Part shown: positions 6,600 through 56,168 of the stretch, one piece after another
Layout of the letters: each line of letters begins with the position of its first letter
Numbering within the stretch: the stretch's first letter is position 1
Assembly: GCF_000092045.1 (NCBI RefSeq)
Contig: NC_007761.1
Location: 2,111,001-2,175,000 of the forward strand
Source of the DNA: Rhizobium etli CFN 42
GTDB taxonomy: Bacteria; Pseudomonadota; Alphaproteobacteria; Rhizobiales; Rhizobiaceae
Direction of reading: 5' to 3'
DNA length: 64,000 bases
Program-made: the position numbers and the translations under genes
The notes under the pieces: generated by a model
What the model saw: the letters and a program-made list of their open reading frames with translations, nothing else
The model's database searches: none
What the model was told of the DNA's origin: nothing

Positions 6600-8006
6600 A
6601 TGAGTGAAATGGACGTGCTTTTTGCCACCCTGCGACAGGCGGCTGACCAGCGGACGGTCGAGTGTATCGAAAATGTCGTCAAGCAGGGCTTGGACCGCGA
6701 TCTCAATCGCATCAATGCGCTCGCCTTCGCCGACAAGCACCATCTCGACGAAGAAAAAACCATTGCAGCCTTTCTGCATGCGGCCCGTATCGGCGCCTTC
6801 GAGATGACCTGGAACGTGCTTTGCCCGGGATGCGGCGGCGTCCTTGACAGCGGTGCAACCCTCAAGGGGGTCAACCAGGATACCTATCATTGCGCCCTCT
6901 GCGCGGCCGGATACGAACCGACCCTCGACGAGATGGTCGAGGTCACCTTCACGGTCAGTCCGCGCGTGCGCAGGATTGCCGCCCACGAGCCCGACCGGCT
7001 ACCGCCGCTCGAATATTACCGCCAGATTTTCTTCAGCTCCGGCGTCGACCTGCCGGAGGATCTGGAAGGCAAGTTTGCAAGCATCCTTCTGGAGATGATC
7101 GAGCTGGGACCCGGCGAGAAAGCCTTCGTGTCGCTGCAGCTGCCGTCGCAATTCGTCATCATCTTTGATGCTGTGACGCATTCGGCGCAGTTCATCGACG
7201 TGCAGGGTGAACCCACCGGCGAACGCCAGAACCTCTCGATGGTCATCAGCCGCGGGCATGCCTTGAACGAAACCGTGACGCTGCGTCCCGGCTTGCTGCG
7301 GCTCACCCTCGAGAACCACACCGATCGCCGGGTGGTGCCGAATGTCTGCATCGCCGGCGATGATCTGCACGATCTCCTGGGCCGCAGGCGGCCATTTCTG
7401 ACGGCCAAGCGCCTGCTGACCAACCAGAGTTTCCGCGACATCTACCGGACCGATACGCTCGACGTCGACCAGCGCCTGAAGATCACCAGCCTGACGTTCC
7501 TCTTTACCGATCTCAGGGGGTCGACCGCGCTTTATGAACGTGTCGGCGATCTTGCCGCCTTCGACCTGGTGCGCGCGCATTTCCGCGTTCTTCACGAGAT
7601 CGTCGCCACCGAGGCCGGCGCGGTCGTCAAGACCATCGGCGATGCCGTGATGGCGACCTTCCCGAGCCCGGACCGCGCGGTGGCGGCCGCCCTCAGAATG
7701 CGCGAGGCGATGCGCCGGTTGAATGCCGAACACGGCAGCGAAGACCTGCTCCTGAAGATCGGCATCCATGAGGGACCGTGCCTCGCCGTCAACCTCAACG
7801 ACCGGCAGGACTATTTCGGCCAGACCGTCAACATCGCCTCGCGCGTCCAGGGGCTTGCCGATCCGAATGTGATCATGACGACGGAGGCGATCGTCGAGGA
7901 TATCCATGTCTCGGAGATCCTGCGCGACAGCGGCGTCACATCAGCTTCTCGGATGGCGGAACTTCAAGGCATCGGCAGGGAGGTCAGGATCTTCGCGCTG
8001 TCGTAA
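6600..8006 (+). CDS. Class III adenylate/guanylate cyclase with N-terminal DUF5939-type sensor region
   Basis: From the ATG at 6600 this encodes 468 aa. The N-terminal about 290 residues match the DUF5939 type and include a probable zinc ribbon, CPGC at 75-78 and CALC at 98-101. The C-terminal catalytic domain (about 297-468) has both metal-binding Asp motifs (FLFTDLRGS, TIGDAV), the Lys before TIGD and the Asp of DYFG that favour ATP, and the transition-state Asn and Arg in GQTVNIASR. It should be an active soluble adenylate cyclase. The start is weakly supported: GAGG lies about 10 nt upstream and the frame is open to 6456. It is not in an operon. Confidence 0.9.
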   Translation: MSEMDVLFATLRQAADQRTVECIENVVKQGLDRDLNRINALAFADKHHLDEEKTIAAFLHAARIGAFEMTWNVLCPGCGGVLDSGATLKGVNQDTYHCALCAAGYEPTLDEMVEVTFTVSPRVRRIAAHEPDRLPPLEYYRQIFFSSGVDLPEDLEGKFASILLEMIELGPGEKAFVSLQLPSQFVIIFDAVTHSAQFIDVQGEPTGERQNLSMVISRGHALNETVTLRPGLLRLTLENHTDRRVVPNVCIAGDDLHDLLGRRRPFLTAKRLLTNQSFRDIYRTDTLDVDQRLKITSLTFLFTDLRGSTALYERVGDLAAFDLVRAHFRVLHEIVATEAGAVVKTIGDAVMATFPSPDRAVAAALRMREAMRRLNAEHGSEDLLLKIGIHEGPCLAVNLNDRQDYFGQTVNIASRVQGLADPNVIMTTEAIVEDIHVSEILRDSGVTSASRMAELQGIGREVRIFALS

Positions 8007-8475
8007 GGGTCGTTCCGCTGAACGCAGGTATCGAGGCAGAAGTGGGTTCGACCTGAACGCGGCGCATCCGACTCGCTGCGACAAGCCATATCTCCGTGGA
8101 TCTTCTTCGGCCCAGATGCTCTCCGCGGCTTTGCATTGCCGCACCTCGTCTCGTTTGCTCACCATGACCGCGAAAGGACGGCGTGATCATTCTAGCAGAG
8201 GCTACCGGCGATGAGTTTTTGCAGGTGGAGGCGGACACCGCCGGAATGTCTGAATTTCCCGAAAATCCCACATCTTCTGCCGTCTTGCCGATGCAATGAT
8301 GATCGCACGCAGATCCATGCGATAGTCGCGGGGGAGCGCGTGAACAAGAGCATCCATAGCCGGCCGTCTCGCCTGAACATGGCCGGCGCGGCGTTTGAAC
8401 ACGGGGCGTGGTGGACCCAGTCTGGCGGGTGTGGGACGCGCCTGTGCCTGAAGCTTGAGAATAGGGAGGCAATGG
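8007..8475. other. Intergenic stretch, no gene seen
   Basis: About 470 nt between the cyclase and the ornithine-cyclodeaminase-like gene. Short frames in several registers have Arg/Ser-rich translations and no ribosome sites. It should contain the promoter of the next two genes. Confidence 0.45.
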
Positions 8476-9471
8476 ATGCAAACGCTGCTGCTTACCAAGG
8501 AAGACGTAGGAAGGCTGATCTGCATGCGCGACGTCATCGCTGCAGTGGAAGAAGCCTACAAGGCCTTCAACAGCGATCAGGTGGTGCAGCCCGATTATAT
8601 CGGGATTCATCTCCCGCCACCTCGTGGGGAAGTGGATTTCAAGCTTGGCTACAACAAAGCCAATGAAGTGATTTCCATGAAGGCATCTTCCGGAGGTTTC
8701 ATCGACAACCCGACGGCGCATGGGGTGCCGAGCGGCATGGGCACGATCCTCCTGTTCGATGCGAGAAGCTGCGCCCTGAACTGCGTCATGGACGGTAGCC
8801 TGATCACCGGCCTCAGGACAGGAGCCGCCGGAGCTGTTTCGGTGAAAGCACTGGCGCGGAAAGATGCCAGGAAAGTCGCTTCGATCGGAACAGGAAACCA
8901 GGCGAGAATGCAGATCCGGGCGATCAACGAGATCATGACCATCGAAGAGATCCGTGCCTGGGACAGCCATCCGGATACGCTTGCCAAGTATAAGGCGGAT
9001 ATCGAGAGCGAGTTCGGCATTTCCGTCGTCACGGCGCATTCCAAACGGGCGGCCGTAGAGCAGGCCGATATCCTGGTTACGACCACCCGCGGGAAAGGAT
9101 CGGTTGTGGAAGCCGATTGGGTGAAGGCCGGCACGCACATCGTTGCCATCGGCACCGATCAGAGGGGTAAACAGGAACTGGACCCTGAGATATTCAGGAA
9201 TGCCAAGGTGGTGGTCGATTCAATGGCGCAGTGCGCCGAAAAGGGTGAGACCTGGCATCCGTTGAACAGGAATATCATCGCCAGAGACGATATTCATGGA
9301 GAGATCGGCGAGATTTTGCTGGGTCGAAAGCCGGGCAGAGAAAATGATGACGAGGTCACCATTTTCGACTCCACGGGAATGGCTATTCAAGACAATCTCA
9401 CAGCGGACAGGATATACCGGAACGCAATAGACAGGGGCGCCGGAACGTTCTTTGAATTCTTTAGATCCTGA
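8476..9471 (+). CDS. Ornithine cyclodeaminase / mu-crystallin family protein (probable imine reductase)
   Basis: 331 aa. The ATG at 8476 is 6 nt after GGGAGG; an in-frame ATG at 8455 lacks a ribosome site. The NAD(P)-binding Rossmann motif SIGTGNQA lies at about residues 140-147, with family motifs GLRTGAAGA before it and [14 protein letters not shown] after it. Family members include ornithine cyclodeaminase, alanine dehydrogenase, and the reductases EutC and BhcD. The gene precedes a threonine-dehydratase-family gene by 135 nt. This pairing is known for EutB/EutC (hydroxyectoine use) and BhcB/BhcD (hydroxyaspartate cycle), where a dehydratase makes an imine that this family reduces. I infer that chemistry here rather than classical cyclodeamination. 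Confidence 0.88.
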
Positions 9472-9606
9472 CGGAGGCCGTGCGCTCTTCCGATCGGCTT
9501 GTGAGCAAATCCAAGGCTTGGCCTACCAAATCAAAAAACCATCGATCAGCGCTCTGCGCCCATGTTCGCAAGAATGTCGGCCTGGAAGCGGAAGGCGAGG
9601 AGCATC

Positions 9607-10581
9607 ATGCGCGACTACGCGACCATTCAGGACATCCGCGAAGCCCGGGAAAGGCTTAAGCCCCACATCCGGCACACGCCGCTGCTGCGTGCCGAAAAAA
9701 TAGAGAAAGAGGTTGGCTGCCAGCTCTACCTCAAGCCTGAGACGCTGCAGATCACCGGCGCCTTCAAAATCCGCGGCGCGCTCAACAAGGCGCTCTCGCT
9801 TCCGCGACAGGAGCTCGCAAACGGCGTCATCGCCAGTTCGTCGGGCAACCACGCCCAGGGGCTTTCCTACGCAGCTAGGATGCTCGGCGTCAAAGTAATC
9901 CTGGTGCTCCCGGTGACCACGCCGGCAATCAAGATCGCCAACACGCGGGCTCTCGGCGCCGAGGTCATTCTGTTTGATGGTGATACTGCTGCCAGATGGA
10001 AAAAGGTCTATGAAATCGCCGAGCAAAACAACTACGCGACCATTCACGGGTTTGAGGATCCCGTTGTCATGGCAGGGCAGGGCACGATCGGATGTGAGAT
10101 ACTGGATGATTTGGACGATGTGGATACGGTCATCGTGCCCGTCGGTGGCGGAGGGCTTATCTCAGGCATTGCCACTGCCATCAAGGAAACGAAACCCTCG
10201 GTCCGGGTTATAGGCGCAGAGCCCGCTTTGACGCCGAAGTATTTTCACAGCCGGATCAATAGGGAACGCACCTCGTTTCCACTGAAGAATACCATCGCGG
10301 ACGGCTTGAGGATAAGCGTTCCGGGGCAGAACCCGTATCCGATCATCGAAAAATATGTCGACGAGATCGTCCTTGTTGATGACGAACACATTATCGCAGG
10401 CATGCGCAGCCTGGCGAGGGATGCGAAGCTGATCGCCGAACCTGCCGCATCGATAGGGATCGGAGCCTTGCTTGCCGGCTCGATAGTAGTCAGGCCGGAT
10501 GAAAAGGTCTGTGCGGTTTTGACTGGCGGGAACTGGGACTTGTGTGATCTGGCGGAGATATACCGGGCTGCCGAGCAATAG
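9607..10581 (+). CDS. Threonine/serine dehydratase family PLP enzyme (possible hydroxyamino-acid dehydratase)
   Basis: 324 aa from the ATG at 9607, which has a nearby GAGG. Fold-type II PLP enzyme: the Schiff-base Lys54 lies in TGAFKIRGA, the phosphate/substrate loop is SSGNHAQG, and the glycine-rich PLP phosphate loop is [10 protein letters not shown]. There is no C-terminal ACT regulatory domain, so it is a catabolic-type or specialised dehydratase. EutB and BhcB are relatives that act with an ornithine-cyclodeaminase-family reductase, and the upstream gene is such a protein. No further eut or bhc genes are adjacent, so the substrate remains open. Confidence 0.88.
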
Positions 10582-10706
10582 GACGCAGATTGCCGCGGGA
10601 GAACGACATCGCCCCGGCCGAGGCCCCACTGCAGCCTCAGTGGGAAGCTCGACAGCAGAGCCATTGTCGTTATCAAAAGCTGGGGCGTCAGCCCCGGCAT
10701 TCCCGT

Positions 10707-17647: not shown

Positions 17648-18160
17648 ATGACGTCAAGAAAAAACGTGCAAAATACACATATGTCGGAAAAGCTGCGAGA
17701 GTTGCACGGATCGCTGATCGAGATCGTCAGTGTCATGAACCGGCCCCAGCGCGACGAGCAGATGGTCCGCGAGGCGGGCATTTCGCTCGATCGCGCCCTG
17801 TTTCCGCTGCTGGTGACGGTGGAGCGCCTCGGTCCAATCGGCGTGGTCGAACTCGCCGACCGCGCCGGGCGCGACTACACCACGGTCAGCCGCCAGGTCG
17901 CCAAGCTCGAAAGCCTTGATCTCATCGAGCGCCGCGGAAGTGCGGCGGACCGCCGCGTGCGTGAGGCCGTCATCAGCGCGAAAGGCAAGGCGATGACCGA
18001 CCGCATCGACGCCGCTCGCGAAAAGATCGGCCGTGCAATCTTCGAAAGCTGGGACGAACACGACTTCAATGAACTGGTGCGGCTGATGCGGAAATTTGCT
18101 CAGGACATCGGTGGGGATATCGATAAGGACGCCGAGAAACCGCAGGAATTGGGCGGCTGA
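17648..18160 (+). CDS. MarR family transcriptional regulator
   Basis: 170 aa. The ATG at 17648 has AGGAG about 7 nt upstream; an internal Met at residue 12 is a possible alternative. The winged helix-turn-helix covers about residues 45-115: LFPLLVTVERLGPIGVVELA, then GRDYTTVSRQVAKLESLDLI with the recognition helix, and a wing with ERRGSAADRRVREAVIS. C-terminal helices form the dimer region. It probably represses the divergent monooxygenase gene and itself. A degraded copy of its C-terminal coding region is found at 21561-21729. Confidence 0.92.
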   Translation: MTSRKNVQNTHMSEKLRELHGSLIEIVSVMNRPQRDEQMVREAGISLDRALFPLLVTVERLGPIGVVELADRAGRDYTTVSRQVAKLESLDLIERRGSAADRRVREAVISAKGKAMTDRIDAAREKIGRAIFESWDEHDFNELVRLMRKFAQDIGGDIDKDAEKPQELGG

Positions 18161-21251: not shown

Positions 21252-21560
21252 GTCGCATCCATGCCGCCAATGAAACAAATTCGTATTGTTCAGTCCGGGT
21301 AGGCAGATTGCCGCTGCCACGCTGTGAAATCCGCACTCAATGTTGATTTATCGAATGAATGCGTAAAGGACACTGGATTGCTGTCGGAGCACAAGTATTC
21401 GATCAGTATTTTTGGCTAAATTTCAGAGAAGCGCAAGACCTTGGCGCCAATCGATATGACACCTCATCTTGCGGTTTCCGTCCCCAGAGTGTCAGGCGTT
21501 CCGGTTGGATGTTCGTTCGCCTTGGCGACGCCCGGCAAGAGCAAATCAAGTCGTCTTTCG

Positions 21561-21729
21561 ATGGCCGACCGCATCGATGCCGCACGCGAAAGCATCGGAC
21601 GCGCGATCTTCGAAAGCTTGGACGAACACGATCTCAATGAATTGGTACGTGCTGACGCGCAAATTCGCAGATGAGATCAGCGGCAAGATAAGCGTCAGCG
21701 CCCGTAAGCCGCAGGACGATGGCGACTGA
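21561..21729 (+). pseudogene. Frameshifted C-terminal fragment of a MarR-family gene
   Basis: The translation from 21561 reads MADRIDAARESIGRAIFES and onward in close parallel to the C-terminal part of MarR at 17648-18160 (MTDRIDAAREKIGRAIFES). Similarity then jumps to the next register near 21646 and continues as RKFADEISGKI and KPQDDGD before a stop at 21727-21729. One extra base therefore separates the two parts. No MarR winged-helix region is found upstream, and no gene is seen between 21252 and 21560. It is a remnant of a duplicated or recombined marR-like gene, not functional. Confidence 0.75.
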
Positions 21730-21753: not shown

Positions 21754-22143
21754 TCAAAATACTTTTGCGGCCGTAACTTCGACTTCCACAAGGAATTCGG
21801 GGCGGGTGAAGCCACCGACGACGATTAGCGTCGAGGTCGGCTTCGGCTCGAGCGTGTATCGATCCCGGACCTCCATATAGTCGGCGAAGTGCTCGCGCTT
21901 CGTCACAAAACCCGAGATGCGGATAATGTCGGAAAAACTCATCTTCGCCTCGCCAAGAATCGCCTTGATCGCCTCGAAGCAAAGTTCTGCCTGCGCGCCG
22001 ACATCCTCCGGCACCTCCTCCGCGAGGCCAATGCCAAGTTGCCCGGAGGTTACGAGCAACGAGGCGCCCGGTGGGACCAGCAAACCGTGATTGTAATTTC
22101 CGAAGGGGCGGCGAACGGAGGAGGGATTGAAGATCCTCTTCAT
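21754..22143 (-). CDS. Rid family (RidA/YjgF/UK114) protein lacking the canonical catalytic Arg
   Basis: 129 aa, standard length. Rid motifs: TSGQLGIGL, CFEAIKAILGEAKMSFSDII, VRDRYT and a C-terminal LVEVEVTAAKVF. Archetypal RidA hydrolyses reactive enamines/imines using an Arg in a P-x-R-S-T context; here the matching stretch reads PTSTL, with Thr where Arg is expected. It is therefore probably one of the other Rid subgroups, with different or uncertain activity. It starts immediately after the stop of the quinone reductase gene and is the last gene of a seven-gene run, so it likely handles an intermediate of that pathway. Confidence 0.88.
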   Translation of the reverse strand: MKRIFNPSSVRRPFGNYNHGLLVPPGASLLVTSGQLGIGLAEEVPEDVGAQAELCFEAIKAILGEAKMSFSDIIRISGFVTKREHFADYMEVRDRYTLEPKPTSTLIVVGGFTRPEFLVEVEVTAAKVF

Positions 22144-22725
22144 CTAGAACCGCTCCATCGCCGTCTTCACCTTTTCCAGAAACTTGGCTCGAGTTTCCGC
22201 GGTGCAATTGTTCATGTCGTAATGCGCAAGAAAGGTGACCGGCCTTAGGGGATTGATCTGTGCCCTCAGCACACGTTTGACAATCTTCTTCGGCGGATTG
22301 CCGGCGGCGAAGGCGCGAAACGGCGTGGCGCCGTATGTCAGAACGGCGGCGAGCTTCCTGATATGGCGAAGCCGCGATTCCACCTTGCCGTCGACGAGGT
22401 CGAAGGAAACACCCGGGAGCCAGACGCGATCGAAATAGCCCTTCAGGATCGCTGGGAACCCGAAATTCCAGATCGGCGTCACCAGCACCAGGCCCTCGGC
22501 CCGCTTCAGCCGCTCGACATAGGGTTTCACCAGATCAGAATTGGCGGGATAGTCGTGATAGCTGAGCCGGTCGCGGCGGGTGAGCACGGGGTCGAATTTC
22601 TCGGCATAGAGATCGCAGGCATCAACCGCATGGCCGGCTTTCTCAAGGCTATCCAGCGTCTGTTTGTAAAGCGCCTTGCCGTAACTTTCCTCAACCGGGT
22701 GCGAATGAAGGACGAGAACGTTCAT
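22144..22725 (-). CDS. NAD(P)H-dependent quinone oxidoreductase (flavodoxin-like fold)
   Basis: 193 aa. Flavodoxin-like NQO1/MdaB-type protein: VLVLHSHPVEESYGKALY binds FMN/FAD phosphate, TPIWNFGFPAILKGYFDRV is the family hallmark, and LTYGATPFRAF follows. Its start overlaps the stop of the FAD-linked oxidase gene by one base (TGATG), and the Rid gene begins directly after its stop. It may recycle quinone or reduced flavin for the oxidase, or act on a quinone-like intermediate; this is inference from position. Confidence 0.9.
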   Translation of the reverse strand: MNVLVLHSHPVEESYGKALYKQTLDSLEKAGHAVDACDLYAEKFDPVLTRRDRLSYHDYPANSDLVKPYVERLKRAEGLVLVTPIWNFGFPAILKGYFDRVWLPGVSFDLVDGKVESRLRHIRKLAAVLTYGATPFRAFAAGNPPKKIVKRVLRAQINPLRPVTFLAHYDMNNCTAETRAKFLEKVKTAMERF

Positions 22726-24131
22726 CAGGCCTCCATGACGCTCGCAAGTCCGGGAAACAGATAGTTCTTGCCGGCATCGAAATCGAAACTAGGATTCTCC
22801 CAGGCAATCATCTTGCCGGGGTTCAGCAGCCCGCGGGGATCGGTCTCGTGCTTGAAGGCGAGCTGCACCTTGTCGGTGCGCTTCATGCCGCCTTCCTCCA
22901 GCGTGTAGCGGTGCGGATTGAAGATCGGGCAGCCGTGATCCTGGTGGATCTTGATGATCTCCTCGAGCCGCGCCTCTGTGGTGTAGCGTACCAGCGGCAG
23001 GCCGGAGCACTGGATCTGCCCGTCGAACTTGATGAATTCGAGATGACCCGGCACTTCATCACCGAAGATTTCCACCATCTTGGCGACCTTGGCCACATGG
23101 TCCGGCCCCGGATACTGCACTTGCAGATAGGTGAAGTTGGGGTCGACCTTGAGAGCACGCAGCGTCGTGTGGTTCCAGGCAAGCTCATAGGCATGCGGAA
23201 TGCCTTTCATGCTTTCGACCCTGTCGGAGCGGAAGATGACCTCGCCCTTGTGAGCGGCGGCAAAGGCGAGGAAGGCATCCATGGAATGCGGCGCGATCAT
23301 CAGCACCACCACGGACTGGCCCTTGCTGATATAGGATTTATGCCGGGTGAAATAGTCGTGCGGTATGGGGGCGGCGATCGGTGCGATCTCCTTGACGAGG
23401 ATGCCGTTGCATTTGGCGAGCGCATCGGAGAAGCGCACGGCAGCCATGAAGTCGTCATAGCCGACGAGAACGTCCACCCAATCATAGGCGGGCGCCAGCG
23501 GCATTTCGATCTCGGTAATGATGCCGTTGGTGCCATAGGCATGGCTGACCTTCTGCAGGTCCCAGCCGGTGAGATCGAGCACGCGTGGCTCGGCCTCCAT
23601 GGTGACGACGCGCAGGCGCAGGATATTGCCGAGGTCGCGCAGGCCGCCCCAGGTGATCGAACCGACGCCGCCGGAGCCGCCGGCAATGAAGCCGCCGACG
23701 GTTGCCATCTGCGCCGTGGACGGGTGGAACCGCAGCTCCTGGCCGGAATGGGCCTTGGTCTGCTTGTCGAGCTGGGCGATGATGATGCCAGGCTCGCAGA
23801 TCACGCGGCCGGGATGGATTTCCTTGATCTTGTCCATGGCCGCCAGATTCAGCACGATGCCGCCGGAAAGCGGCATCGCCTGGCCGTAATTGCCGGTGCC
23901 GCCGCCGCGGGGCGTGACCGGCACGCCATGCGCGAAGGCAACCTTCAGCGTCCGGATGACCTCTTCTTGGTTTGTCGGCGTGACGACGAGATCGGCCGTC
24001 ACGTTGTCGAGCTGCGCCTTCAGTATCGGTGAATACCAGTAGAAATCGCGGCTCTTCTGGCGCACTAGCGCCGGATTGTCTTCAATGGCGATGCCTTCAA
24101 GTTCTTTCTTGATCGACTGATAATCCGGCAT
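22725..24131 (-). CDS. FAD-linked oxidase (PCMH/GlcD-like)
   Basis: 468 aa from the ATG at 24131, placed one base after the TGA of the upstream gene with GGAG nearby. The N-terminal PCMH-type FAD domain (about residues 50-230) shows VVTPTNQEEVIRTL, PRGGGTGNYGQAMPLSGG and GGFIAGGSGGVGSITWGGLR. The C-terminal domain ends with HETDPRGLLNPGKMI, the usual FAD-oxidase signature. Relatives oxidise hydroxy acids, alcohols or amines. The gene is inside a seven-gene operon between an amidohydrolase and a quinone reductase, so it probably performs the oxidative step. Confidence 0.92.
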   Translation of the reverse strand: MPDYQSIKKELEGIAIEDNPALVRQKSRDFYWYSPILKAQLDNVTADLVVTPTNQEEVIRTLKVAFAHGVPVTPRGGGTGNYGQAMPLSGGIVLNLAAMDKIKEIHPGRVICEPGIIIAQLDKQTKAHSGQELRFHPSTAQMATVGGFIAGGSGGVGSITWGGLRDLGNILRLRVVTMEAEPRVLDLTGWDLQKVSHAYGTNGIITEIEMPLAPAYDWVDVLVGYDDFMAAVRFSDALAKCNGILVKEIAPIAAPIPHDYFTRHKSYISKGQSVVVLMIAPHSMDAFLAFAAAHKGEVIFRSDRVESMKGIPHAYELAWNHTTLRALKVDPNFTYLQVQYPGPDHVAKVAKMVEIFGDEVPGHLEFIKFDGQIQCSGLPLVRYTTEARLEEIIKIHQDHGCPIFNPHRYTLEEGGMKRTDKVQLAFKHETDPRGLLNPGKMIAWENPSFDFDAGKNYLFPGLASVMEA

Positions 24132-24132
24132 G

Positions 24133-25446
24133 TCAGGCTCCAACGACGCTGTCGAGTTCACGGTAGTCCGGCAGGCGGCGGTCGATCACCTTGCCGCGGC
24201 GAAGCACGACGCGGTCGGACTGCGGACGGGAAAGAAATTCGCTCCAGCGCCGAGCGCTGAAGAGCACCAGATCGGCCGAGGCGCCGGCGGCGATGCGCCC
24301 TTTATCGGGCCGGCCGAGAATCTCGGCAGGTGAGGTGGTGACGACGCGCGCCGCCGTATCCAGCGGATGGTCGAGATGCAGGATGCGGACCGCCTCGCGG
24401 AACACCTCCACGGGGTCGAGATCGCCATAGGCATAGAAGGGGTCGCGGGTATTGTCGGAGGCGACCGCGGTTGCCACGCCGGCCGCGGCCAATTCCTTGA
24501 ACAGGGTAACGCCGCGCCAGCGCGGTGTGCGGCCAGGGTAGCGGTCCTGCAGATACATGTTGCACATCGGCAGCGAAACGACGGCGATACCGGCCTCGGC
24601 AACGAGTTCGACTGTGCGCTTTGCCGTCTCTTGGTCGTGACGGGCGAGCGAGCAGCAATGGCCGGCCGTCACCTTGCCGTCGAAACGGTTGCGCAACACG
24701 GCTTGCGCGATCGCCTTCAGTGTTTCAGCGGCCCGATCGTCTGTCTCGTCGACATGCAGGTCGACATCAAAGCCATTATCGGCCGCGGCTCTGAACAGCG
24801 TATCGAGCTGGCTGTCGAGATCCGGGCTCATCCGTGTGACGCCGCCCATCAGGCCACCCTTGTCGCGAACCACGGCGACGAGCTCGGCGAAATAGGCAGC
24901 ATCCGCCATATTTTCCATCGGAAAGAGCGCCACCGCCTGCAACGCAATCCTGTCCTTCCAGGCCTCGCGCATCTCGGCAAAGACCTCGAAGGAGATGCGA
25001 TGCTGTGGCGCCAGCGAATCGAGATGGGTTCGAATGAGGCTTGTGCCATGCGCGTAGGCGCAGCGCAGGGAAAACTCCATGCGCTTCTTCACGTCGCCAG
25101 CCGACCAGTTCGCTTCGCGGTCTGCGCGCACGGCCTCCAGCGCTCCCGGAAAGGTGCCGTCCGGATTGGCGTTGCGTGGCCAGATATGACCCTTGTCGAG
25201 ATGCGTATGCATGTCGGCGAAGCAAGGCCAGACCATGCTCTCCTTCAGGTCGGACTTCGCCAGTTCCACGGGCGCTTCGCCGGGCGGCAGTACATCGGCA
25301 ATGATGCCGTCGGCGATGACGATATCAGCCCTGACGAGCCCCTCGACAATAGGCGCCTCATAACCGGTGACGGCGGCGCTAGGCAGGGTCGCATTGCTCA
25401 GCACGAAGCGGCCGGAATTGGGCGGTGAAATGAAGGAATAGGTCAT
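24133..25446 (-). CDS. Cytosine deaminase-like amidohydrolase
   Basis: 437 aa. Metal-dependent amidohydrolase of the CodA/cytosine-deaminase type. His80 and His82 lie in ADMHTHLDKGH; further metal and catalytic residues are in DVDLHVDETDD, the His of TAGHCCSLA and the Asp of ASDNTRDPF. The order and spacing match deaminases acting on pyrimidines, creatinine or isoguanine rather than ring-opening dihydropyrimidinases. It overlaps the permease stop region by a base and precedes the oxidase by one base, so translation is coupled. The substrate is likely a cyclic amidine or aminated heterocycle; exact identity is not readable. Confidence 0.9.
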   Translation of the reverse strand: MTYSFISPPNSGRFVLSNATLPSAAVTGYEAPIVEGLVRADIVIADGIIADVLPPGEAPVELAKSDLKESMVWPCFADMHTHLDKGHIWPRNANPDGTFPGALEAVRADREANWSAGDVKKRMEFSLRCAYAHGTSLIRTHLDSLAPQHRISFEVFAEMREAWKDRIALQAVALFPMENMADAAYFAELVAVVRDKGGLMGGVTRMSPDLDSQLDTLFRAAADNGFDVDLHVDETDDRAAETLKAIAQAVLRNRFDGKVTAGHCCSLARHDQETAKRTVELVAEAGIAVVSLPMCNMYLQDRYPGRTPRWRGVTLFKELAAAGVATAVASDNTRDPFYAYGDLDPVEVFREAVRILHLDHPLDTAARVVTTSPAEILGRPDKGRIAAGASADLVLFSARRWSEFLSRPQSDRVVLRRGKVIDRRLPDYRELDSVVGA

Positions 25447-26288
25447 CAGTTTTCCCGTTTCAGGCTACTCTCGTGCCAGCGGTGCAGGGCAAGCCACGAT
25501 ATGAACGAGGTGACGGCGAAGATCGCCACACCGAGCAGCGAGAGCATCAGCAGGGCTGCAAAGAGTCGTGGAATGTTGAGCCGGTATTGCGCTTCGAGAA
25601 GCCGGAAGGCGAGGCCTGAGCCCGCACCCGCCGAGCCTGCGGCAAATTCCGCGACGACGGCAGCAATCAGTGCAAGGCCGCCGCCGATCCTGAGGCCGGT
25701 CATGAAATAGGGCTGGGCAGCCGGGAGCTTGAGAAAGAGCAGCGTCTGCCAGCGCGAGGCGCCGTAGAGCTCGAACAGATTGATGAGATTGTGATCGACG
25801 CTTTTCAGGCCCTGAACCATATTCGAAAGAATCGGGAAAAAGGCGACGAGGAAGGCGCAGATCAGAAGCGCCACCTGCGTTGACGGCGCGTAGATCAGGA
25901 TCAGCGGCGAAATCGCGACGATCGGCGTGACCTGAAGGATGACGGCGAGCGGATAGAAGGCGAGTTCGATCCAACGCGACTGCACCAGGAAAATCGCGAA
26001 GCCGACGCCACCGACCAGCGCCAGCATCAACGATATCAGCGTGATTTTGGTGGTGACCCAGAGGGCAGGGGCAAGCGTACCCCAATCCGTGACGAAAGTG
26101 CTGGCGACGGCCGCCGGACCGGGCAGGATATAGGGCGGCACGCCCGACAGTCTGACATAGGCATACCAGACCAGGACCAGGCACGCGATAACCAGCAAGG
26201 GCGTCAGGACGCGCAGCGCCAGTTCGCGGCGCCGGGCGCTTGCAGTCGTTTGGACAAGCAGCGGCGCCGCGGATTTTTCGTCACTCAT
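25446..26288 (-). CDS. ABC transporter permease (SsuC/ThiX-like)
   Basis: 280 aa from the ATG at 26288, which has GGAGG upstream and overlaps the ATPase stop (ATGA). About six transmembrane segments. The cytoplasmic coupling motif is ELYGASRWQTLLFLKLPAAQ, typical of the nitrate/taurine/thiamine-precursor permease group. With the adjacent ATPase and THI5-like binding protein it forms an importer. The frame is open farther upstream but that portion lies inside the ATPase gene. Confidence 0.92.
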   Translation of the reverse strand: MSDEKSAAPLLVQTTASARRRELALRVLTPLLVIACLVLVWYAYVRLSGVPPYILPGPAAVASTFVTDWGTLAPALWVTTKITLISLMLALVGGVGFAIFLVQSRWIELAFYPLAVILQVTPIVAISPLILIYAPSTQVALLICAFLVAFFPILSNMVQGLKSVDHNLINLFELYGASRWQTLLFLKLPAAQPYFMTGLRIGGGLALIAAVVAEFAAGSAGAGSGLAFRLLEAQYRLNIPRLFAALLMLSLLGVAIFAVTSFISWLALHRWHESSLKREN

Positions 26289-27112
26289 CGACGATCCTCC
26301 GCGGCGTTGATCGCTCCGATGAGCGAATGCGAGACCGTCTCGCAGGCTTTGCGGTATTCTTCCGAAGTGCGAAAATGGGCGTCGCGTGCCAGACTGGTCA
26401 TCAGCGGCAGATCGGCATGTACACGCCCCGGCCTTGCCTTCATCACGACGATGCGGTTGGAGAGATAGGCGGATTCGAAGACCGAATGGGTGACGAAGAT
26501 GACGGTGATGCCGGTCGTATTCCACAGCCTGAGCACGTCATCGTTCAACTTCTGGCGGGTGATCTCGTCGAGAGCCGCGAAGGGCTCGTCCATCAGTAGC
26601 AGCTTCGGCTTCGTCACCAGAGCCCGGGCAATCGAGACACGCATCTTCATGCCGCCGGACAGTTCGCGCGGATAGGCCTTGGCGAAATCCTCTAGGCCGA
26701 CCGTGGTCAGCGCTTCCACGATCTGATCATGTGCCGCCCTCTTGGAGATATGTCGAAGCTTCAGCGGCAGATGAACATTGTCGAACACGGTCTTCCAGGG
26801 CATGAGGGTCGGCTCCTGAAAGACGAAACCGATATCCCCCTCCGGAAGACCCTTGGAGTTGATCCGAGAACTCGGCCAGTCGATCGCGCCCGACGTGACA
26901 TCGCCGAGCCCGGCGATGATCCGCAGCGCCGTCGACTTGCCGCATCCGGATGGGCCGAGCAGGCTGATGAACTCGCCGCTCTCCACTATGAGCGACATCT
27001 CCGAAAGGGCAACGGTTCCGCTGGAGAATGCTTTTGAAACAGCTTGCATGACGACCAGCGGCCGCTTGCGCAACTCTTTCGGGGATAGGGCCTGAGCTTC
27101 TGCTGGGGGCAT
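26285..27112 (-). CDS. ABC transporter ATP-binding protein (SsuB/ThiZ-like)
   Basis: 275 aa. Walker [11 protein letters not shown] loop FQEPTLMPWKTV, signature LSGGMKMRVSIARAL, Walker B LLMDEPFAALDE and the switch His in FVTHSVFESAYL. The Q-loop PTLMPW form is typical of nitrate/sulfonate/THI5-type importers. It overlaps the permease gene by 4 nt and follows the binding-protein gene by about 66 nt. The ATG at 27112 has only a weak ribosome site. Confidence 0.92.
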   Translation of the reverse strand: MPPAEAQALSPKELRKRPLVVMQAVSKAFSSGTVALSEMSLIVESGEFISLLGPSGCGKSTALRIIAGLGDVTSGAIDWPSSRINSKGLPEGDIGFVFQEPTLMPWKTVFDNVHLPLKLRHISKRAAHDQIVEALTTVGLEDFAKAYPRELSGGMKMRVSIARALVTKPKLLLMDEPFAALDEITRQKLNDDVLRLWNTTGITVIFVTHSVFESAYLSNRIVVMKARPGRVHADLPLMTSLARDAHFRTSEEYRKACETVSHSLIGAINAAEDRR

Positions 27113-27178
27113 TGGCTGTCTCGTTCATCAGGGAATGGAATCCGCCGTGTGAGGCGGATCTCCGACGGAGTCTTCGGC

Positions 27179-28195
27179 TTACTTCTTCATCGCCATTCCG
27201 GTGCCTTTGCAGACGAATTTCGTCGTGAAGGCCTTGGTGTAATCCGTCTCCGGCTTGAACACCTTGATCGCTACCATTTCGTCGAAGAAGGCCTTGTAAT
27301 GCGCCTCGGTCAGGCAGCCGATGCCTTTGTCGAGGCTGTCGCCGGATTCGATGATGCCGTACTCCTTCATCTTGGCGATGGAATAGGCGATTTGACCATC
27401 CGTCATTTCAGGATTGTCCTTCTTGATCAGCTCGTTGGCCTTGGTGTTGTCACCGTAGAGATAGTGGTACCAGCCTTCGATCGAGGCATCGACGAAGCGT
27501 TGGACGACATCGGGCTTGCTGTCGATCATCGCCTGCGTGGTGGTGATCATCGTCGAATAGGGGGAGTAGCCGTTGTCGGCGAGCAGGAAGACTTTCGGCT
27601 CGAAGCCGGCCTGCTTCTGAATCTCGTAGGGTTCCGAGGTGAGATAACCTTGCTGCGCCGAATCTTTGTCGGCAAGGAACGGCGCCGGGCTGAAATTATA
27701 GGGCTTGTACTGTTCGTCCCTGAAGCCTTTGAAATTCGCCTTCATCCATTCGAAATAGGTGAGATAGCCGTCCTTGCCGAGAAACAGCGTCTTGAGCTTG
27801 GCGAGATCTTCGAATTTCTCGATGCCGGCATCGGGATGTGCGATCAGCACCTGCGGATCCTTCTGGAAGATCGCCGCGACGTCGACGAGCGGAATGCCCT
27901 GCTCGACGGCCGAAATCTCGCCCTGCGGCCCGCCCATGTAGAAATCGATCTTGCCGGAGATCAGCAGCGCGCTGTTGGCCGCATTCGGACCGCCCTGGAC
28001 GATGGTGACGTCGAGGCCATGCTTGGCATAAGTGCCGTCGGCGACCGCCTGGTAGAAGCCGCCATGCTCGGCCTGCGCCAGCCAGTTGGTGCCATAGGTG
28101 ACCTTGTCGGCCGCCTGAGCGGACGCGATGGAGGCAATCATGCCGCCAAGCCCGGCCAATGCGGAAAAGACCCTGTTCTTCTTTGTCATGGGCAT
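27179..28195 (-). CDS. ABC substrate-binding protein, NMT1/THI5-like
   Basis: 338 aa from the ATG at 28195, with AAGGGGA about 10 nt upstream; ATGs at 28189 and 28252 are alternatives. Signal peptide MPMTKKNRVFSALAG with cleavage after SAQA. The NMT1-type fold is indicated by TYGTNWLAQAEHGGFYQAVA, GLDVTIVQGGP and ISGKIDFYMGG. Relatives bind pyrimidines, riboflavin or other heterocycles as well as organosulfonates. It is the first gene of the seven-gene run, and a LysR-type site lies 81-115 nt upstream. Confidence 0.92.
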   Translation of the reverse strand: MPMTKKNRVFSALAGLGGMIASIASAQAADKVTYGTNWLAQAEHGGFYQAVADGTYAKHGLDVTIVQGGPNAANSALLISGKIDFYMGGPQGEISAVEQGIPLVDVAAIFQKDPQVLIAHPDAGIEKFEDLAKLKTLFLGKDGYLTYFEWMKANFKGFRDEQYKPYNFSPAPFLADKDSAQQGYLTSEPYEIQKQAGFEPKVFLLADNGYSPYSTMITTTQAMIDSKPDVVQRFVDASIEGWYHYLYGDNTKANELIKKDNPEMTDGQIAYSIAKMKEYGIIESGDSLDKGIGCLTEAHYKAFFDEMVAIKVFKPETDYTKAFTTKFVCKGTGMAMKK

Positions 28196-28275
28196 GATCA
28201 ACGTTCCCCTTCTGAGTTCGCGGCCGTCGCGGCGACGTCCGATTTTCTTCATAGGAGCCGTTGCTTTGCTCTTTG

Positions 28276-28310
28276 AAAAGCATCAAATTTCGTGCGCAAT
28301 GATGCCTTTT
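28276..28310. promoter_or_regulatory. Probable LysR operator, copy 1
   Basis: A 35-bp site between the binding-protein gene and the divergent lysR gene. The ends are AAAAGCATCA and TGATGCCTTTT, an imperfect inverted repeat, with GC-rich bases between. It matches the site at 30202-30236 over the full 35 bp at 28 positions. Its place in a divergent promoter next to a LysR gene is the usual one for such an operator. Confidence 0.75.
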
Positions 28311-28377
28311 CGGCATCTCATTGAAAGCCCGTGCCTATTTTGCGCTGCGTGCCTGATATTCATGCAACGAGGTTCTG

Positions 28378-29328
28378 ATGCTGCATTCCAGAAAGCTTCT
28401 CTATATCAACGAGATCGCGCGTTCGGGCTCGATCCGCAAGGCGGCGGCACGACTGAACGTGGCGTCTTCGGCGATCAACCGGCAGATTTTGGCCTTGGAG
28501 GAGGAAATGGGCGCGCCGCTCTTCGAGCGCTTGCCGCGCGGGCTGCGGCTGACCGCCGCCGGCGAGCTCTGCATCGAACATATCCGCGAGGTGCTGAAGA
28601 ACTACGAGCGGCTGGAGGGGCGTATCCGCAGCCTTAAGATGCAGCAGGCGGGCAAGGTTCGGCTGGTGACGACCGTCGGCCTTGCGGCAGGGCCGCTGCC
28701 GGAAATAATCGCCCGCTTCCAGTCGGAACATCCGCGCGTCTTCATGCAATTGCGGAACGACGCCGGCACGATGACCGTCAACCCGGTACTTTCAGGTGAG
28801 GTGGATATTGGCCTCGGCTTCAATATTCCGGCAACGCCCGGCATCCGCACGCTCGGCAATTTCGACATTCCGATCGGCGTGGTTCTGCCGCCCGGTCACC
28901 ATCTGATCGGTCCCGGCCCGATCAACCTGGCCGATATCGTCCAGGAGCGCCTGGTGCTGGCGCAGCAAGGGACCAGCCTGCGCGACGTGATCAATCTGGC
29001 TTTGGCGCGCCTCGACGTGCATGTCGAACCGGTGCTCGAAACCAATGCCTCGGAGATGCTGAAAAAGCTGGTCAAGTCGGGGGCGGGGCTAACGATCCTG
29101 AACCCGCTCGACGTCATCACCGAATGCCGGCAGGGCGAACTGGTCTTCCGGCCGATCGCGGAGCCACATGCGCGCCACCAGCCGATGAAGCTTTTTGCCC
29201 GCGCCCGCGCGCCGCTCGACTCCGCCACCAGCCTGTTCGTCGAATATCTCCTGGCCGAGTTGGCCGGACTGGTGCAGGAACTGCAGGCCAAAGGGCACAT
29301 CGCGGCGGATACTTCCGTCGCGATCTGA
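28378..29328 (+). CDS. LysR family transcriptional regulator
   Basis: 316 aa. N-terminal helix-turn-helix (about residues 1-60): INEIARSGSIRKAAARLNVA, SSAINRQILALEEEMGAPLF, ERLPRGLRLTAAGE. The effector-binding domain spans about residues 90-300. It is divergent from the seven-gene catabolic/transport run and convergent with the creatininase-family gene. The two matching 35-bp sites at 28276 and 30202 are its probable operators. Confidence 0.92.
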   Translation: MLHSRKLLYINEIARSGSIRKAAARLNVASSAINRQILALEEEMGAPLFERLPRGLRLTAAGELCIEHIREVLKNYERLEGRIRSLKMQQAGKVRLVTTVGLAAGPLPEIIARFQSEHPRVFMQLRNDAGTMTVNPVLSGEVDIGLGFNIPATPGIRTLGNFDIPIGVVLPPGHHLIGPGPINLADIVQERLVLAQQGTSLRDVINLALARLDVHVEPVLETNASEMLKKLVKSGAGLTILNPLDVITECRQGELVFRPIAEPHARHQPMKLFARARAPLDSATSLFVEYLLAELAGLVQELQAKGHIAADTSVAI

Positions 29329-29346
29329 GCCGCAGTTCGGCAGGCC

Positions 29347-30144
29347 CTACTTGGAATAAAGACTGGAAAGCGGATAGCGCTTTAGGTCGCAGAGCAGTTC
29401 GATGAAGCCCTTGACCTGATGGCGGCAGATCGCTTCGCCCTTTTCGGCCGTCCCGCGCGACGCGTCGCCGACGACCCCGTTGGGATTGAGATCGTGGGCG
29501 ATCCAGGCGAGCGAATGCGGCGGCAGCGGCTGAATGTAATTCGATTGCTCCCGCATCCATGCCGCCTTGGATTTGAAATTCTGCGCCTTCTCCATCCGTA
29601 CCAGGTCAGGCCGGAAATGCAGCATCAGCGACGTTTCCACCTCGCCGCCATGGATGCCGTATTTCAGCTCATGCTCGCTGATCATGCCCCCGGGGTGACC
29701 GAAGCGCCCCCATTGCGTGGAGATGACGGCCATCGCGTAGCGCACGCGCAGCTCTCGCGCCACGATGCTCATGATATCGACATTGCCGCCATGCGAATTG
29801 ATGATCACCATCTTGCGGATGCCGGCTTCGGCAACCTTTGCGCCAATCGCGGTCCAGACCGGAATGAGCAGTTCGGCGCCGAGCGACAAGGTACCCGGAC
29901 CGTAGATATGTTCATTGGCCTTACCGATTTCCTGCGTCGGCAGCACCAGACAATCGAGATCGACGGGTTTCTGCTTGCGTAATTCGGCGAGCATGCCTTC
30001 GGCGATTGCCACATCGGTCGCGATCGGCAGATGCGGCCCATGCTGTTCCGTCGAGGCGATCGGCAGGATGGCGATCGTGGTGTCGGGAGACAGTCCGGTG
30101 AAGTCATCGCTGACCAACTCGTTCCAGTAAAATGGCACTGTCAT
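29347..30144 (-). CDS. Creatininase family amidase
   Basis: 265 aa. Family motifs are complete: STEQHGPHLP (Glu33, His35), Asp44, NSHGGN (His118) and HGGEVETS (Glu168), the metal-binding set. From memory, bona fide creatininases carry NGHYEN where this has NSHGGN; the NxHGGN form is shared with other amidases and deformylases of the family, so creatinine need not be the substrate. It is convergent with lysR (18 nt between stops), and a copy of the LysR-type site lies 58-92 nt upstream, so it probably belongs to the same regulon as the operon at 21754-28195. Confidence 0.9.
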   Translation of the reverse strand: MTVPFYWNELVSDDFTGLSPDTTIAILPIASTEQHGPHLPIATDVAIAEGMLAELRKQKPVDLDCLVLPTQEIGKANEHIYGPGTLSLGAELLIPVWTAIGAKVAEAGIRKMVIINSHGGNVDIMSIVARELRVRYAMAVISTQWGRFGHPGGMISEHELKYGIHGGEVETSLMLHFRPDLVRMEKAQNFKSKAAWMREQSNYIQPLPPHSLAWIAHDLNPNGVVGDASRGTAEKGEAICRHQVKGFIELLCDLKRYPLSSLYSK

Positions 30145-30201
30145 TGCCGTTCGCCTCTCCTTGCCGTTCGAGACAGTGAGTAGGGAATAAAGCTACCTGC
30201 G

Positions 30202-30236
30202 AAAAGCATCAATTTGCGGTCGCACCGATGCCTTTT
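30202..30236. promoter_or_regulatory. Probable LysR operator, copy 2
   Basis: A 35-bp site upstream of the creatininase-family gene, ends AAAAGCATCA and GATGCCTTTT, same length and outer bases as copy 1 at 28276-28310. Interior bases differ at seven positions, so only the ends and some central bases are conserved. Confidence 0.75.
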
Positions 30237-55789: not shown

Positions 55790-56168
55790 TTGGTTTCTCC
55801 TTGGTTTATCAACTGAGGCCACGTCGACCTCGGGTGAACAACCTCGCTCCGGCACGTGCGTTCCGCATTTTAATATTTCGTGATCTCATGCCGAAACGAG
55901 AGATGAGGAAGCGGACCGGGCGGGTAGGGAGCTCGCCTGCCGTTTCGTTGGCCACCGGGAGAAAGCGGAAAAATCCCGATGTTCTCCAGCACTGCCGCGT
56001 CCGCTTGGCGCGGCCCGCAACCTCGCTTCGGAAACCGGGCATAGATAAAAAGGTTCCAGGAAAATCAGCCGCATCCATCCCCCTTCATGGTTTCGAAGCG
56101 GGCCCTCGACTCTTTCCAAATGGCTGGACCGCGCTAACTTAACGGGCAGCCGATGAAAGGAGAAAACC
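55790..56168. other. Intergenic stretch, no convincing gene
   Basis: About 380 nt between the divergent KGG and 69-aa genes. Frames at 55783-56142 (+) and 55809-56078 and 55886-56170 (-) have no ribosome site or family features. It should hold both promoters. Confidence 0.4.

Follow-up and report, generated by a model that had tools for sequence, protein, structure and literature searches.

ThiXYZ-type systems are responsible for the uptake and salvage of N-formyl-4-amino-5-aminomethyl-2-methylpyrimidine (FAMP), and operons for uptake and breakdown under a LysR-type regulator are a known kind. BrbF, a creatininase-family member involved in riboflavin synthesis, deformylates a formylaminopyrimidine and is essential for riboflavin in Sinorhizobium meliloti, and two of its homologues are noted in Rhizobium leguminosarum (PMC9478397). 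Analysis of a stretch of 64,000 nucleotides from the 6.53 Mb genome of Rhizobium etli CFN 42 (contig NC_007761.1, positions 2,111,001 to 2,175,000 of the forward strand; hereafter, the window) showed the presence of a set of nine genes and two putative operators at window positions 21754–30236. Comparison of related sequences confirms the nine-gene set as one conserved module, and it is tentatively read as a dedicated catabolic regulon for the import and degradation of a small aminopyrimidine-type ring (probability about 0.45).

Seven closely packed genes on the minus strand are joined by lysR and by a gene of the creatininase family; all nine frames were found, with the domains claimed in the first-pass annotation. 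The seven genes encode an NMT1/THI5-like substrate-binding protein (SBP; 27179–28195; Pfam NMT1, 97.3 bits), the ATPase (26285–27112; ABC_tran, 118.7 bits) and the permease (25446–26288, with a predicted start codon; BPD_transp_1, 77.3 bits) of an ATP-binding cassette (ABC) importer, a PRK07583-type amidohydrolase annotated as cytosine deaminase (AmH; 24133–25446), a GlcD-like flavin adenine dinucleotide (FAD)-linked oxidase (FADox; 22725–24161; FAD_binding_4), a flavodoxin-fold NAD(P)H reductase (QR; 22144–22725; Flavodoxin_2, 103.2 bits) and a Rid-family protein of the enamine/imine deaminase family (Rid; 21754–22143; PF01042, 68.7 bits). The gene lysR, encoding a LysR-type regulator (HTH_1 and LysR_substrate), lies on the plus strand (28378–29328), followed on the minus strand by the gene of a creatininase-family amidohydrolase (Creat; 29347–30144; PF02633, 238.4 bits).

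The Rhizobiaceae loci are the top 80 among 514 relatives found. All 80 contain the genes of Creat, LysR, SBP, ATPase, permease, AmH and FADox; QR is present in 79 and Rid in 63. QR is missing only from locus L046, which is cut by a contig end. Where Rid was found in the fetched DNA, its gene is co-directional, as here, in 13 loci and on the opposite strand in 50 of 63, and its earlier assignment to the operon does not hold as a fixed feature. The divergent set includes 49 loci, namely, 40 hand-picked regions and nine plasmid records (L194–L199, L219–L221). The regions belong to 39 genomes out of 53 outside Rhizobium that gave a FADox match; 47 of the 49 loci were retrieved with FADox as query. 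Presence was counted by phmmer on all frames, gene calls being unreliable in GC-rich loci, and the gene-call clusters C5, C7, C10 and C29 were set aside as apparent antisense shadows. With the window queries alone, FADox was detected in 49 loci, ATPase and permease in 47 each, SBP in 45, AmH in 43, QR and Creat in 39 each and Rid in 33, and all eight non-regulatory proteins were found together in 27 of 49. Addition of queries from L194, L196, L197 and L198, which match themselves, raised SBP to 46, Rid to 36, Creat to 40 and the complete set to 31. The joint retention of all eight proteins in 27–31 of the 49 divergent loci indicates one module, in agreement with the single pathway unit proposed earlier, and the members are conserved together rather than tied to separate unrelated pathways.

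Named carriers include Pseudooceanicola, Palleronia, Nitratireductor, Alloyangia, a Comamonadaceae plasmid, Agrobacterium, Mameliella, Pseudosulfitobacter and Leisingera. Pairwise similarities of FADox and AmH correlate at 0.88 (33 loci), the largest value among 200 permutations being 0.38. Judged by FADox, six of the 37 genomes of the genus sample lack the cluster. In the class, 19 of 385 genomes have a FADox match with E <= 1e-80, as do 32 of 398 genomes of the phylum sample, the source genome being included in both counts; matches with E <= 1e-60 were found in 6 of 250 genomes in the order of genome G624.

A 35-bp site, the presumed LysR operator, is located in the lysR–SBP gap (28276–28310), and its second copy is located upstream of Creat (30202–30236), as had been noted on first inspection. 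The site is an inverted repeat represented by AAAAGCATC, 16 bp and GATGCCTTTT. Genome-wide, only these two copies were found, either exact or with up to three mismatches; the reversed pattern had 0 matches in the genome, and dinucleotide-shuffling the window 100 times gave 0 matches with up to three mismatches. Related loci were scored with thresholds of at least 12.5 for sites and 11.5 for controls, the score having been devised after the sites had been inspected. All 80 Rhizobiaceae loci have a site reaching 12.5 both in the lysR–SBP gap and upstream of Creat; of 1411 control windows drawn from these loci, 12 attain 11.5. Scanning of these loci as a whole (1.66 Mb) revealed exactly two sites in 79 and three in one. 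Since the 80 loci are kin, the counts reflect conservation and not 80 independent events.

Outside the 80, loci L174, L193 and L199, which contain the lysR orthologue, have exactly two sites each. No site was found in the 47 related loci without a lysR orthologue (922 kb scanned whole), one of which, L189, encodes a LysR 39% identical, yet has no site. The LysR domains and the common site at both promoters fit a LysR regulon, and the pairing of site and regulator across these loci supports, in silico, the single regulon that had been suggested. The seven-gene operon and Creat are probably co-regulated by LysR, which would bind and act at the predicted operators.

AmH matches NCBIfam PRK07583, named cytosine deaminase, with 698.1 bits at a cut-off of 403, a name which is no proof of activity. 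In the alignment with 1k6w and relatives, all metal and catalytic residues of CodA (HxH, H, E, H and D) are retained. The score with the CodA model PRK09230 is 127.4 bits at a cut-off of 483. The description of this protein as cytosine-deaminase-like stands for the superfamily and the catalytic residues, but AmH is not CodA proper, and the cytosine contacts discussed below are replaced. Seven divergent AmH members have HxHLDK, GHxC, a DN pair and DPF in common.

Creat scores 90.9 bits with the creatininase model TIGR04448, below the cut-off of 235, and solved creatininases match it at 2.5e-11 or weaker. The genome has one other member of this family, with which Creat shares 44% identity over 239 residues. 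At least one family member is present in 37 of 37 genus genomes, including the six without the cluster, as expected if the core copy is BrbF; this core paralogue is a candidate orthologue of BrbF (SMc02977 in S. meliloti). Among 40 cluster copies, 38 score closer to the window Creat than to the core copy, the copies having been chosen by that similarity and two being weak matches. Creat appears nearer to a formamidase-type relative than to creatininase, so that of the creatininase-family amidase announced in the first-pass annotation the PF02633 membership is retained and a formamidase-like character is preferred to that of a creatininase.

The best solved relatives of SBP by sequence are 4nmy and 3ix1. 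By fold, thiamin-bound 4nmy, FAMP-binding 3ix1 and Thi5 rank above binders of taurine, sulfonate, nitrate and pyrroloquinoline quinone (PQQ). No thiamin pyrophosphate (TPP) riboswitch was found, either in the window or in any of 28 related loci; TenA is encoded in 26 of 53 genomes and beside FADox in none, the nearest same-contig copy lying about 90 kb away and some genomes being fragmented. Thiamin salvage was rejected on these two grounds, and the missing riboswitch and TenA link would weigh against salvage more than against catabolism.

FADox matches PDB 6v42/6v43 (‘FAD/FMN-containing dehydrogenase’) with 703 bits over residues 15–473, and no paper on these structures was found in the open-access literature; the predicted model of FADox has a mean predicted local distance difference test score (pLDDT) of 36.8. 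Rid falls below every NCBIfam equivalog cut-off, with 25.8 of 169.1 bits for RutC (TIGR03610). Three consecutive FADox homologues are present in locus L170 (about 6600–10600) and two in L171; these are perhaps oxidases of differing specificity.

Neighbouring genes in variant clusters provide further clues. RutR-like regulators were found in seven of the 49 divergent loci, with the YcdC-like domain confirmed by Pfam in five; the RutR model, with a cut-off of 368, gives two of them 146 and 115 bits. In Alloyangia, a gene of a RutG-like permease is located 1.5 kb past the Rid gene, with one gene intervening, and RutB/BiuH-like hydrolases, below cut-off, are encoded in L172 and L189. The 2-oxoglutarate oxygenase family is represented in four regions (L161, L172, L184 and L187); for the L161 protein, the sole one tested, thymine dioxygenase is the second-best solved relative. 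In Nitratireductor, a gene of DAO-type amine oxidase follows FADox, the SBP candidate has no Pfam family match, and QR was not found in the locus.

A sister cluster is present in R. leguminosarum 248 (L216, 4123–10128) and Agrobacterium tumefaciens A6 (L217, 4103–10113). It encodes an AmH relative (46–48% identical), a LysR with 41% identity to that of the window, an ABC importer (NMT1 type in the single one tested) and an oxygenase, for which thymine dioxygenase is the best solved relative in R. leguminosarum 248; no matching 35-bp site is evident upstream of the SBP gene. A further variant, on the Aminobacter plasmid pANY103a (L215, 5123–14478), contains genes of an AmH 50% identical, amid an NMT1-type importer, RidA, an isochorismatase-family protein and a second amidohydrolase, with no FADox, QR or Creat annotated. 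The neighbour clues, each of them a minority, jointly lean to pyrimidine-like rings.

The reactions, their order and the substrate class that we infer are as follows. LysR would bind the 35-bp inverted repeat at the two promoters, its effector being the substrate or a metabolite of the pathway, and would switch on import and breakdown of an aminopyrimidine-type ring, probably for nitrogen. The ABC importer would take the ring compound in, and AmH would take off a ring amino group; FADox, perhaps with QR as redox partner, would oxidize a side-chain or ring C–N or C–OH bond, Rid would hydrolyze the resulting imine, freeing ammonia, and Creat would cut a formamide or a cyclic amide (lactam). The lean to aminopyrimidines comes from the SBP folds, the AmH superfamily with its catalytic residues, the likeness of Creat to BrbF, the sister cluster and the RutR-like neighbours. 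A more specific version, considered unlikely, is catabolism of the pyrimidine half of thiamin (FAMP, or its amine or alcohol) from soil and sea. Here Creat would deformylate, FADox and Rid would convert the aminomethyl arm to an aldehyde and ammonia, AmH would take off the 4-amino group and QR would reduce an intermediate; such a substrate would employ every part.

A number of observations weigh against an aminopyrimidine. The AmH columns of CodA Q156, D314 and W319, which we take to be the cytosine-recognition contacts, read M, N and F; GlcD-like oxidases, to which FADox belongs, act mostly on hydroxy acids; and, outside the core, no neighbour gene is common to most clusters. These three points favor an alternative in which the regulon is real and the substrate is another nitrogen compound (another heterocycle, a cyclic amide or a hydroxy-amide), pyrimidine labels reflecting superfamily ancestry only. 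In addition, NMT1/THI5-like proteins include binders of sulfonate, nitrate and PQQ, the predicted SBP model is modest (mean pLDDT 66.4), and the pyrimidine clues from neighbouring genes are minorities that come mostly from a distant branch. A PF08362 protein is encoded in 35 of 53 genomes and lies within 10 kb of FADox only in G624 and G780, which places the RutR clue in that distant branch; a general RutR link was dropped on this ground, and in G057 such a protein lies about 10.7 kb from a second FADox. The SBP fold ranking, the thymine-dioxygenase relative in the sister cluster and the RutR- and RutB-like neighbours, however, agree on pyrimidine, and the alternative of another nitrogen compound is regarded as a real, if doubtful, possibility.

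The formamidase-like character of Creat is also compatible with a purine-derived substrate (8-oxoguanine, urate or ring-opened formamidopyrimidines), which Creat would deformylate, AmH deaminating a purine breakdown product. In L157 and L156, Rid and a Creat gene indeed flank a gene of 8-oxoguanine deaminase (646 and 660 bits, cut-off 532), but among the 49 divergent loci clustering, as opposed to a model search of all, picked up this enzyme in these two only, and this SBP type is not known from purine uptake; a purine source is judged improbable. Degradation of creatinine or N-methylhydantoin is suggested by the Pfam family name of Creat and is contradicted by its creatininase scores given above, and creatinase or hydantoinase is not among the nine genes, which makes it very improbable; creatinine and guanidines, listed earlier among candidate substrates, were rejected on model scores. 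The nine genes might, lastly, be neighbours from separate pathways which share the site by chance: Rid moves and was not found in the fetched DNA of 17 of 80 loci, and Creat is the loosest co-varying part (0.37–0.56), a further point against the catabolic regulon. Conservation across families and classes, the site and regulator in 80 of 80 loci and the FADox–AmH correlation disfavor this explanation, and on these comparisons it is largely refuted. A regulon for catabolism of an aminopyrimidine-type ring remains the preferred reading.

In the genome studied, the contig carrying the cluster measures 3.8 Mb or more, whereas R. johnstonii 3841 and R. etli CIAT 652 have the cluster on large plasmids (pRL12 and pC, respectively), so that the replicon is not the same in every species. 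Every junction from the ATPase to Rid overlaps or abuts, and the gap between the ATPase and SBP genes is 66 bp. The permease and ATPase genes overlap by 4 bp, taking the permease start at 26288 (the open frame reaches 26525), AmH and the permease by 1 bp, and QR and FADox by 1 bp, with Rid immediately after QR. The overlap of FADox and AmH is 29 bp with a GTG start; in the annotation of R. johnstonii there is a 1-bp gap instead, and the start of FADox is possibly located about 30 bp further downstream. Adjoining the Rid end, a 107-bp stretch (21559–21665) suggests a decayed partial copy: it has 85% identity to 17991–18096, the 3′ portion of a MarR-like frame that lies about 3.5 kb off. The Rhizobiales small RNA Atu_At1 (RF02496) was found at 55913–56020 on the minus strand (106.8 bits).

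In the open-access literature, with subscription journals largely outside, no described pathway with this set of parts was found, as the first-pass annotation had supposed. The accessible parts of PMC3333776, PMC11103875 and PMC6421345 name no gene that could be tied to the cluster, and old pRL12 locus tags were unmatched. The module is common to many soil and marine bacteria, and database names such as ‘cytosine deaminase’ and ‘creatininase’ are probably wrong for its genes. A widespread stable module with parts named by superfamily only would mark an environmental nitrogen compound lacking an assigned bacterial fate; an identified substrate would put right the annotation of many genomes, rhizobial as well as marine, and tell which compounds rhizobia scavenge round roots. 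If the FAMP version is true, thiamin salvage would have a counterpart in catabolism, with carriers in Rhizobiales, Rhodobacterales and a few Burkholderiales.

Comparison with known systems reveals both shared and differing parts. AmH shares with Escherichia coli CodA the superfamily and the metal and catalytic residues and differs from it by M, N and F at the presumed contacts and by its PRK09230 score (127.4 of 483 bits). FADox has its match in PDB 6v42/6v43, at 703 bits. With the Rut pyrimidine pathway, the cluster has in common a Rid-family protein and, near some of its distant relatives, RutR-, RutB- and RutG-like proteins, whereas a RutA-type monooxygenase is absent from the nine genes and Rid reaches 25.8 of 169.1 bits as RutC. 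Creat belongs to the same family as BrbF, being 44% identical to its presumed orthologue, but sits in a separate cluster under the shared 35-bp site. With ThiXYZ-type FAMP salvage, the THI5-like ABC importer is shared, FAMP-binding 3ix1 is the second-nearest fold to SBP, and a deformylase could be common in kind; unlike that system, the cluster is found without a TPP riboswitch or adjoining TenA, and adds an oxidase, a reductase, Rid and a putative ring deaminase.

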